Positions 57,704-60,037 of a DNA stretch of 64,000 nucleotides are shown here, piece after piece. A program made the translations under genes and the position numbers. The stretch is taken from assembly GCA_026388715.1 (NCBI GenBank), contig JAPLJF010000010.1:248001-312000 (forward strand), given 5' to 3'. Position 1 is the stretch's first letter, and every line of letters begins with the position of its first letter. The notes beneath the pieces are model-generated. The model was not told the origin of the DNA. It ran no database searches and saw nothing but the letters and a program-made list of their open reading frames with translations. The stretch is from Deltaproteobacteria bacterium (GTDB lineage Bacteria; Desulfobacterota; Desulfobulbia; Desulfobulbales; Desulfocapsaceae).

Positions 57704-60037
57704 TTATTCCTTTTTTTCGTCAAGGGGATTCCACACTGGCCCGGTCGCCGTGTCGATGATCTGGATGCCCTGGCGCAGGAGTTCATCGCGCACATCATCG
57801 GCTGCCTGCCAGTCTTTTTCAGCTCTGGCCTTCTCGCGACGGGCAATCAGGGTGCCCACGGCCGGGGCCAGGGGACAGCCCTTCAGCCGGAAGATCTGGA
57901 GGATCTGATTGATCTTGTTGAAGCTCTCCAGGATATATTTTTTCTGATCGTGGTCGAGATGGTTGACGTGGAGGATGGGGCCCACGGCCTTGATGAATTT
58001 ATAGATGGCGCCCATGCCTTTGGAGACGTTGAGATCATCATCCATGGCCTCAAAAAACTGTTCAGTCATGGTGGAAACAAAGGCGGCGATTTCCGGGTGG
58101 GGTTTGCCCGGCGGCAGACAGAGGAGCTTGCAGGTAAACTCATCAATACGGCGCAGTGCGGTGCGGACGTTGATCAGTCTTTTATAGGAAAAATTCAGTG
58201 GTTTACGGTAGTGAACCGACAGCAGCATAAAACGCACCTCGCGGGGGGTGAAGCCGCGCAGGATCAGATCATTCAGGGTTACCACATTTCCGGCCTCGGT
58301 CGACATCATCTTGCCATCCACCAGCAGGAGCTCGGAGTGCAGCCAGTATTTAGCCAGAGGTTTGCCGGTCAGGGCTTCGGCAATGGCAATCTCGTTTTCG
58401 TGGTGGGGAAAGATCAGATTCCGGCTGCTGGTGTGGATGTCGAGGGTCTGGCCGAGATAACGGGTGGACATGGCCGAACATTCGATATGCCAGCCCGGCC
58501 GTACATTGCCCCAGTCGGTCTCATAAAAGATCCCTTTTTTCAACTCCGCCAGGGTGGAGCGTTTGAGCAGGGTGAAGTCGCGGGGGTTGTCCTTTTCATA
58601 GTTATCCAGATCAACGGTGCGGCCCAGCTGGATCTTGCTCAGGTCAATGCCTGACAGGCGGCCATAGCGCTTGAACTTGGAGATGTCAAAATAGATGGAA
58701 CCATGTTTTTCATAGGCAAAGCCCTTGTGGATGAGTTCGTGACTGATCTCGATCATATCGTCAACATGTTCCGAGGCCTTGGGGTAGCCGGTGGCCCGTT
58801 TGATCCCCAGGCTATCGATGGCCTCCATGAAGCCGTCAATGTATCTACTGGTGAATTCGGAAAGCGACAAGCCGGCCTTGCTGGCGCCATCAATGGTATT
58901 GTCGTCCAGGTCAGTGAAGTTCATGTACGAATCGACGGTCAGGCCCTTACTTTCCAGGTAGCGGGTGATCAGATCGGTGACGATGAAGCGGCGGCACAGG
59001 GAGAGATTAGGCGCTTCATAGGCAGTCGGCCCGCAGGTGTAAAAGGAGACTTTCCCTTCGGTCTGGGGGGTGAAGACCTCTTTCTTCTTGCTCAGGGTGT
59101 TAAAAAAACGCAGTTGCGACTTTTTCTCGCCTGTCTGGATCTTGCGGGTAAACAGGGGGGTGCTCAGATAGCGTTCGCCACTGTCCGGGAGCAGGGTGAC
59201 AATAAATCCATCCTCTAATTTTTTGGCCAGATTGATGGCGGCAAACATGGCCGCGCCACTGCTCATGCCCACCAGCAGCCCCTCTTTACGGGCCAGCAGC
59301 CGGGCCATGTGAAAGGCGTCTTCATCTTCAATGTTGACGATTTCGTTGGCTTTTGATTTGTCAAAGATCCCGGGGCGATAGGATTCCTTCATATTTTTCA
59401 GCCCCTGGATCTTGTGGCCCAGAAATGGCTCCACGGCGATGATACGCACCTGGGGGTGGTGCTCGCCAAACCAGGCGCACAACCCCATCACCGTGCCGGA
59501 GGTGCCAAGGGTGGCCACAATATGGGTCACCTGTCCCTCTGTCTGCTGCCAGATCTCCGGGGCAGTGGTGTTATAATGGGCCTGCCAGTTGGCCTCATTA
59601 TTAAACTGATCGGTAAGGAAATAGCGATCCGGGTGTTCACGGGCCATGGCGTAGGCCTTTTCAATAGCCCCATCGGTGCTGCGGTGGGCCGGGGTCAACA
59701 GGATCTCGGCGCCATAGGCCTGCATGATCTTGCGGCGCTCCAGCGACGCGGACTCGGACATGATCAACTGGCAGCGGTAGCCCTTGGCGGCGCAGACCAT
59801 GGCCAGTCCGATGCCGGTATTGCCGCTGGTGGCCTCGAGGACGATCTTCTCAGGGGTGAGTTCGCCGCTTTTTTCGCCGGCCTCGATCATGGCCAGGGCA
59901 ACCCGCTCTTTGACTGATCCCCCGGGGTTGGAAGACTCCAGTTTTCCATAGAGACGAACCCTGTCATTGGGGTACAGCCGATTAATCCGAATCAGTGGGG
60001 TGTTGCCAATGGCTTCTAAAACTGAGTTATAGAGCAT
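57704..60037 (-). CDS. Cysteine synthase fused to a degenerate cysteinyl-tRNA-synthetase-like domain
   Basis: 777 residues. Residues 1-300 are a PLP-dependent cysteine synthase (SSNPGGSVKER with PLP lysine K43, EATSGNTG, LGTSGTVMG, GMSSGAA, LLPDSGERYLS). Residues about 310-777 follow the class I CysRS plan (FFNTLSKKKEVF, YTCGPTAYE, MNFTDLDDNTI, GWHIECSAMS, FPHHENEIA, C-terminal AADDVRDELL..GI). All four predicted zinc ligands are kept (C335, C520, H545, E549). The HIGH motif reads NLSL (344-347) and KMSKS reads KMMST (576-580), so ATP activation may be lost or changed. It may couple cysteine synthesis to a cysteine-ligating or cysteine-binding function rather than charge tRNA. Whether a separate CysRS exists is not visible. 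Confidence 0.85.
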   Translation of the reverse strand: MLYNSVLEAIGNTPLIRINRLYPNDRVRLYGKLESSNPGGSVKERVALAMIEAGEKSGELTPEKIVLEATSGNTGIGLAMVCAAKGYRCQLIMSESASLERRKIMQAYGAEILLTPAHRSTDGAIEKAYAMAREHPDRYFLTDQFNNEANWQAHYNTTAPEIWQQTEGQVTHIVATLGTSGTVMGLCAWFGEHHPQVRIIAVEPFLGHKIQGLKNMKESYRPGIFDKSKANEIVNIEDEDAFHMARLLARKEGLLVGMSSGAAMFAAINLAKKLEDGFIVTLLPDSGERYLSTPLFTRKIQTGEKKSQLRFFNTLSKKKEVFTPQTEGKVSFYTCGPTAYEAPNLSLCRRFIVTDLITRYLESKGLTVDSYMNFTDLDDNTIDGASKAGLSLSEFTSRYIDGFMEAIDSLGIKRATGYPKASEHVDDMIEISHELIHKGFAYEKHGSIYFDISKFKRYGRLSGIDLSKIQLGRTVDLDNYEKDNPRDFTLLKRSTLAELKKGIFYETDWGNVRPGWHIECSAMSTRYLGQTLDIHTSSRNLIFPHHENEIAIAEALTGKPLAKYWLHSELLLVDGKMMSTEAGNVVTLNDLILRGFTPREVRFMLLSVHYRKPLNFSYKRLINVRTALRRIDEFTCKLLCLPPGKPHPEIAAFVSTMTEQFFEAMDDDLNVSKGMGAIYKFIKAVGPILHVNHLDHDQKKYILESFNKINQILQIFRLKGCPLAPAVGTLIARREKARAEKDWQAADDVRDELLRQGIQIIDTATGPVWNPLDEKKE

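Follow-up and report, generated by a model that had tools for sequence, protein, structure and literature searches.

A cysteine synthase joined to a cysteinyl-tRNA synthetase-like domain without adenylation motifs in Desulfobacterota: possible control of cysteine production by tRNA-Cys

Introduction

What is the role of a cysteinyl-tRNA synthetase (CysRS) that has lost its adenylation motifs and sits on the end of a cysteine synthase? The question is raised by a gene of a Desulfocapsaceae bacterium (assembly GCA_026388715.1, contig JAPLJF010000010.1), found in a window of 64,000 nucleotides, the whole stretch of DNA analysed here. An earlier note, made from the letters of the window, had described the fusion and considered three functions: a non-canonical cysteine ligase comparable to MshC, a regulator of the synthase, or a synthetase tolerant of unusual motifs. 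Cysteine synthesis is classically controlled by feedback inhibition of the serine acetyltransferase CysE. In other systems, the HisRS-like domain of Gcn2 senses uncharged tRNA, and T-box riboswitches sense tRNA charging and control amino-acid supply.

Domain structure of the fusion protein

The gene and its parts are listed below by position in the window; all lie on the minus strand.

57704..60037 (-), whole fusion gene, CysM-like plus CysRS-like, 777 amino acids, ATG start (ORF and profile matches)
59150..60037 (-), cysteine synthase domain, CysM-like, PLP fold type II, residues 1-296 (TIGR01136/PF00291; Foldseek to 2bhs)
59909..59911 (-), K43, PLP lysine by homology (K in 79/79 fusions)
59384..59416 (-), substrate loop HKIQGLKNMKE, residues 208-218, with K214 aligned with E. 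coli CysM R210 (alignments)
59114..59149 (-), linker, residues 297-308 (low conservation; low pLDDT at about 291-306)
58073..59113 (-), CysRS-like catalytic domain without the usual adenylation motifs, residues ~309-655 (PF01406, dN/dS)
59033..59035 (-), C335, zinc-ligand position (72/79 fusions)
58997..59008 (-), HIGH position, reading NLSL, residues 344-347 (alignment)
58478..58480 (-), C520, zinc-ligand position (74/79 fusions)
58418..58435 (-), HGGGxD position, reading HTSSRN, residues 535-540 (alignment)
58403..58405 (-), H545, zinc-ligand position (79/79 fusions)
58391..58393 (-), E549, zinc-ligand position (E or D in 63/79 fusions)
58295..58309 (-), KMSKS position, reading MMSTE, residues 577-581 (alignment)
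57890..58072 (-), DALR domain, residues ~656-716 (PF09190 at 660-716, 26.7 bits, cut-off 22)
57707..57889 (-), CysS_C anticodon-binding domain, residues ~717-777 (PF23493 at 723-760, 26.7 bits, cut-off 23)
57752..57838 (-), stretch with R734, R738, W743, D747 and D762, corresponding to E. coli R423, R427, W432, D436 and D451 (79/79 fusions)

The fusion claimed in the earlier note is real. In profile searches, the single 777-residue open reading frame matches the cysteine synthase subfamily over residues 7-296 (TIGR01136, 367.6 bits, cut-off 344.15) and CysRS over residues 309-769 (TIGR00435, 383 bits, cut-off 340), and PF01406, DALR_2 and CysS_C all score above their Pfam cut-offs. The synthase half stays below the equivalog cut-offs for both cysM (TIGR01138, 357.6 versus 394.2 bits) and cysK (TIGR01139, 331.3 versus 350.95 bits). 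A naming problem comes to light as well, since the protein scores above the curated equivalog cut-off for cysteine--tRNA ligase. An AlphaFold2 model contains both folds (mean pLDDT 84, pTM 0.59), and Foldseek yielded TM-scores, normalized by target length, of 0.93 and 0.77 for CysRS (8qhp, 1u0b), 0.85 for MshC (3c8z) and 0.91 for CysM (2bhs). Given the low pTM, the placement and orientation of the two halves in the model are uncertain.

The reading of the motifs in the earlier note largely stood. All four zinc-site residues of CysRS, C335, C520, H545 and E549, are present, HIGH is replaced by NLSL, and the DFxLWK segment reads DFTLLK. The loss of KMSKS also held, with a shift in register: the KMSKS of the canonical CysRS from the same genome aligns with MMSTE and not with KMMST (576-580) as had been proposed. 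Beyond these points, the adenylate loop HGGGQD is lost as well, and the anticodon domain is retained.

Distribution and origin

The gene is neither a product of chance nor an assembly artefact: in a search of relatives, the match ran through both the synthase and the CysRS half in 51 of 58 genomes, the genome of origin included and some of these matches being interrupted by contig ends, while the fusion was not found in the other seven. The phylum was then represented by 394 genomes of at least 90% completeness, of which 172 matched the query at E <= 1e-100. Removal of eight weak hits (E 1e-136 or weaker, synthase-only or fragments: G061, G110, G117, G139, G294, G313, G330 and G428, with G117 and G428 possibly being truncated fusions) left 164 carriers, which were assigned by score, some of them also being read residue by residue. 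Carriers among the matches listed include Desulfocapsa, Desulfopila, Desulfobulbus and Desulfobacula. When 101 CysRS and CysRS-like rows were placed in one tree, the 58 fusion rows formed one side of a branch with an SH-aLRT value of 99, the other 43 rows comprising 26 CysRS-like proteins of the same phylum and 17 from elsewhere. This topology argues for a single origin followed by inheritance, and judged from these sequences the fusion is an old and widespread protein of the phylum.

The survey for the fusion covered this phylum and Nitrospirota. Among the 148 Nitrospirota genomes searched, no match at E <= 1e-90 covered both halves; the nearest synthase there stands alone and has a similar K214 loop in the six loci read. 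Spread by plasmid or phage was rejected, as no record with 80% of the query was present among 72,556 plasmid records (E limit 1e-60) or 50,697 phage records (E limit 1e-30). Nor did the gene neighbourhood offer an operon clue to function, which was dropped: no neighbour was common to the 50 fusion loci compared, an ORF read as thymidylate kinase adjoining the fusion in 13 of them, and none of the 21 tRNAs in 40 scanned fusion loci was a tRNA-Cys gene.

Decay and loss of the fusion may be under way in one family (f51). Some of its genera retain the fusion, strongly decayed in the one copy read (L212), and no fusion was found in the 12 sampled genomes of one genus (g100) that have dsrA and CysE.

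Loss and retention in the CysRS half

We compared 79 non-redundant fusions (<90% identity) with 109 standalone CysRS, scoring the adenylation motifs leniently. The HIGH set was present in 4/79 fusions versus 108/109 standalone enzymes, HGGGxD in 1/79 versus 104/109 and KMSKS, even when leniently scored, in 13/79 versus 98/109. The set on the anticodon side (R734, R738 as R or K, an aromatic residue at 743, D747 and D762) was present in all 79 fusions and all 109 CysRS, within an anticodon domain whose median top-residue fraction in the fusions is only 0.44. The corresponding E. coli residues were assigned by alignment with solved chains. In E. coli CysRS, G34 is in contact with R427, D436 and W432, and a water network with this base involves D436 and R423 (PMC12684709). 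The five residues could be retained partly for structure. For D451, the residue aligned with D762, we assume a role on the anticodon side.

The emphasis on the zinc site in the earlier note is borne out by 61/79 fusions, which keep all four ligands, and is weakened by the 18 that have lost at least one. In 11 of these only E549 is changed, while more or other ligands are affected in seven, namely two or three ligands in six fusions and C335 alone in one. The anticodon set is retained even where the zinc site is ruined: in L212, the copy that has decayed furthest, three of four zinc ligands are gone along with the HIGH, HGGGxD and KMSKS sets, yet the five anticodon-side residues are all in place. 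On a tree inferred with the motif columns excluded, each adenylation position required 11 to 14 changes and zinc positions 0 to 7, while R738 and D747 required none.

In the lineage of the window, purifying selection acts strongly on the catalytic domain even though its motifs are gone. Over nine pairings with close relatives, dN/dS was 0.034-0.057 in the catalytic part of the CysRS half and 0.047-0.103 in the CysM part; the DALR plus anticodon part gave 0.063-0.103 (eight computable pairs). For the farthest relatives dS is close to saturation. The catalytic part is thus more constrained than the anticodon part in this lineage, which speaks for a retained ligand pocket as well. Retention of the zinc pocket in 61/79 fusions, with E549 alone changed in 11 of the other 18, suggests that cysteine matters too. 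A pure tRNA sensor would need no zinc pocket, so its retention counts against such a device.

Persulfide synthesis by the CysRS half was considered and rejected. The lysine positions concerned, presumably those of K73, K76, K266 and K269 in E. coli CysRS, are all lysine in 0/99 rows and none of them is in 30/99. The 99 rows, used here and for the conservation of the linker and substrate loop, include the partial sequences L034 and L141 as well as L007, which duplicates the query. The persulfide-synthesis activity of CysRS is named in PMC9774590, in which the residues were not found.

Separate CysRS proteins

The earlier note had proposed a genome search for a second cysS, and this turned up a canonical CysRS with CHIGHA, HGGGQD and KMSKS elsewhere in the same genome. 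Fifty-four genomes were then searched with TIGR00435, and a separate CysRS match was obtained in all 52 that carry the fusion; these include G117, in which the fusion is seen only as contig-cut pieces, and the separate match is partial in G093 and G117. In G148 and G195 the separate enzyme is of another type, with HIGN and KMAKS. These two standalone proteins (L214 and L215) are 37-38% identical to the CysRS of the window genome, belong to a lineage unlike most rows of the phylum, and look in sequence as if they had been acquired by transfer and had replaced the original.

Three other genomes (G173, G292 and G379) encode CysRS-like proteins in frames of about 420 residues (L216, L217 and L218), which form a long-branched group of their own apart from the fusion clade and resemble the described CysRS* in length; in L216, the one scanned, Pfam found no anticodon domain. 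A third CysRS-like protein in G073 (L219:1505-3691, plus strand) combines a CysRS catalytic domain with a following family 2 glycosyltransferase, again with no anticodon domain found by Pfam.

The synthase half and its substrates

K43, K214 and N215 are invariant in 79/79 fusions. In alignments, K214 corresponds to R210 in the CysM of E. coli, but to a glycine in the CysK chain of Mycobacterium tuberculosis O-acetylserine sulfhydrylase. This arginine has been linked to the choice of O-phosphoserine (PMC3805590), and a basic residue, shared with O-phosphoserine sulfhydrylases, is present at this position in all 79 fusions. Since the CysM of Campylobacter jejuni does not use O-phosphoserine (PMC9855970), the family name alone is not decisive on the substrate.

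The absence of CysE bears on the use of O-phosphoserine only indirectly. CysE was not found at E <= 1e-30 in 80/164 fusion genomes compared with 45/230 others, and dsrA was present in 145/164 compared with 59/230, the 230 including the eight genomes set aside and the same-phylum rows not being independent, so that Fisher values are descriptive. With dsrA in most fusion genomes, sulfide should be plentiful there. Twenty-nine of the 80 CysE-less fusion genomes were searched for further CysK/CysM-type proteins (E <= 1e-40), and the fusion was the only one in 28, eight of which are single-contig assemblies; the lone exception, G167, has a second. A separate CysK was present in all six CysE-bearing fusion genomes searched, the fusion standing alone in 0/6. 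In the genome of the window a cysE-like gene adjoins cysK (L220), so there the fusion is a second system. Taken from sequence, the most likely substrates of the synthase half are sulfide and O-phosphoserine, or in place of the latter some other CysE-independent acceptor. A SepRS route was rejected, as none of 35 genomes had a hit above the cut-off, weak hits of 24-29 bits occurring in 12.

Proposed function and alternatives

Among the three options of the earlier note, a regulator of the synthase fits best. We propose a cysteine synthase with a pseudo-CysRS control domain that binds tRNA-Cys, does not activate cysteine and sets the synthase by demand, an explanation that in our judgement has an even chance of being right. 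What the sequences show is two domains on one chain, their single origin, the separate CysRS, the loss of the ATP motifs, the invariance on the anticodon side, purifying selection and, in most of the CysE-less fusion genomes searched, no CysK/CysM-type protein besides the fusion; substrate choice, tRNA binding and the direction of control we infer. Counting against the proposal are the weaker constraint on the DALR and anticodon part than on the catalytic part in close relatives, the lack of a tRNA-Cys gene in the 40 loci scanned and of a neighbour shared by the 50 loci compared, and the uncertain domain orientation in the model. The synthase half would make cysteine from O-phosphoserine, or another CysE-independent acceptor, and sulfide, and the pseudo-synthetase half, its capacity for cysteine activation gone, would read the anticodon of tRNA-Cys. 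Where it is intact, the zinc pocket may also sense cysteine, either free or on the tRNA end, and synthase activity would be set according to demand, as HisZ acts on HisG and as in the HisRS-like part of Gcn2. Loss of ATP chemistry combined with anticodon-side invariance and purifying selection points to a tRNA-Cys-binding pseudo-synthetase, and when such a domain is joined to an apparently CysE-independent cysteine synthase it is most simply its control domain. In this bacterium and many relatives that reduce sulfate, tRNA-Cys may therefore control cysteine production through a CysRS half apparently deficient in loading, and the zinc pocket of 61/79 fusions would fit a reading of cysteine on the tRNA end besides the tRNA itself.

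A more specific form of this proposal is a protein counterpart of the T-box, an enzyme gated directly by the charging of tRNA-Cys in which the anticodon domain would select the tRNA and the zinc pocket would sense whether its end bears cysteine. We regard it as possible but rather doubtful. If true, such gating would take the place of feedback on CysE in anaerobes with abundant sulfide. In the 80 of 164 fusion genomes that show no serine acetyltransferase, the fusion would supply both the cysteine synthase and the missing control. More generally, the protein is a candidate for direct regulation of metabolism by a tRNA via a dead synthetase.

The zinc pocket could instead bind free cysteine and feed back on the synthase in the manner of HisZ, the anticodon part being a passenger. 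The 61/79 fusions with four zinc ligands and the 11 more in which E549 alone is changed are consistent with such a sensor, as are W516 (76/79) and T375 (69/79), positions that we take to line the cysteine pocket. CysE-less genomes, moreover, lack the usual feedback point, and HisZ itself offers a precedent (PMC9437257). The anticodon set, however, is present in 79/79, while two or three zinc ligands are lost in six fusions and C335 alone in another, and in ligand-poor G090, G217 and G238, which have lost two or three ligands, no CysK/CysM-type protein other than the fusion was found. We consider a sensor of free cysteine unlikely.

It is less probable again that the fusion is a scaffold or channel that keeps tRNA-Cys or CysRS close to cysteine production and so favours charging. 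The invariant anticodon set would suit this role, and an active-looking CysRS fused to serine acetyltransferase in Nitrospirota (L238) would be a parallel coupling, but the fusion would face competition for that anticodon from the separate CysRS.

The option of a synthetase tolerant of unusual motifs, that is, a working CysRS in a bifunctional protein like the AGAT-MetRS of Mycoplasma penetrans, is disfavoured and seems very unlikely to us. The score above the TIGR00435 cut-off speaks for it, and in 18/79 fusions HxG is accompanied by a basic residue at each of the two KMSKS lysine positions, three of the 79 having HLGN and KMSRS. As HxGN also occurs in the solved CysRS chains 6ujd and 3sp1, those lineages may still adenylate. 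Against this stand the separate CysRS in 52/52 fusion genomes searched, the repeated loss of adenylation positions, with HGGGxD intact in 1/79, and a query without HIGH, HGGG and the KMSKS lysines.

An ATP-dependent cysteine ligase that, like MshC, makes a small thiol, the remaining option of the earlier note, can draw on the kinship with CysRS and the fold match to MshC, and is highly improbable in view of a score of 190.7 bits against the MshC cut-off of 485.1, the lost ATP elements beside anticodon-side residues invariant in 79/79, and the absence of a common neighbour among 50 loci. Just as improbable is RNA-dependent cysteine synthesis, with the synthase half acting on an acyl group borne by tRNA-Cys: tRNA-reading residues are retained beside a PLP sulfhydrylase, but SepRS is above the cut-off in 0/35 genomes and fold-type II synthases bind a free carboxylate.

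Relation to known systems

The open-access full text of PMC, to which our literature search was directed, yielded no description of a CysM-CysRS fusion. The closest published systems are HisZ, CysRS*, MshC, the RNA-dependent cysteine pathway (PMC5424206) and M. penetrans AGAT-MetRS. Like the CysRS half of the fusion, HisZ is a synthetase paralogue without adenylation that is tied to an amino-acid biosynthetic enzyme (PMC9437257). HisZ, however, serves as a regulatory subunit of HisG, which catalyses the first step of its pathway, whereas here a class I CysRS half with its anticodon domain kept is joined to the last enzyme. The fusion as proposed would resemble Gcn2 and the T-boxes in that the charging state of a tRNA would control the supply of its amino acid; Gcn2 acts via a kinase and T-boxes via mRNA, whereas in the fusion the sensor would be part of the biosynthetic enzyme itself.

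AGAT-MetRS likewise joins an amino-acid-making PLP enzyme to the cognate synthetase (PMC13215547). Both of its activities work and its authors knew of no other organism with the fusion, whereas in the CysM-CysRS fusion the charging motifs are lost and the protein is widespread in a phylum. MshC is a CysRS paralogue that adenylates cysteine (PMC2922099; see also PMC9437257) and is ATP-dependent, in contrast to the fusion without ATP motifs and with an anticodon domain; solved MshC chains match the catalytic part only, up to about residue 630, beyond which the query adds DALR_2 and CysS_C. CysRS* of Desulfobacterales, likewise an additional CysRS-like protein and from related bacteria, has no anticodon domain and charges SelC* (PMC9437257), while CysS_C is present in the fusion. 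CysM and O-phosphoserine sulfhydrylases share the fold, the PLP lysine and the basic residue at the R210 position with the synthase half, but stand alone with no CysRS half.

A different joining of the two functions was seen in Nitrospirota. In G556, one gene encodes a serine acetyltransferase joined to a complete CysRS whose motifs are intact (HVGH, HGGG and KMSKS; L238:477-2609, plus strand), which suggests, from its sequence, a parallel coupling of cysteine synthesis to CysRS. Many other CysRS hits in this phylum lie in frames of 706-757 residues (one of 817) and may represent the same serine acetyltransferase-CysRS fusion.
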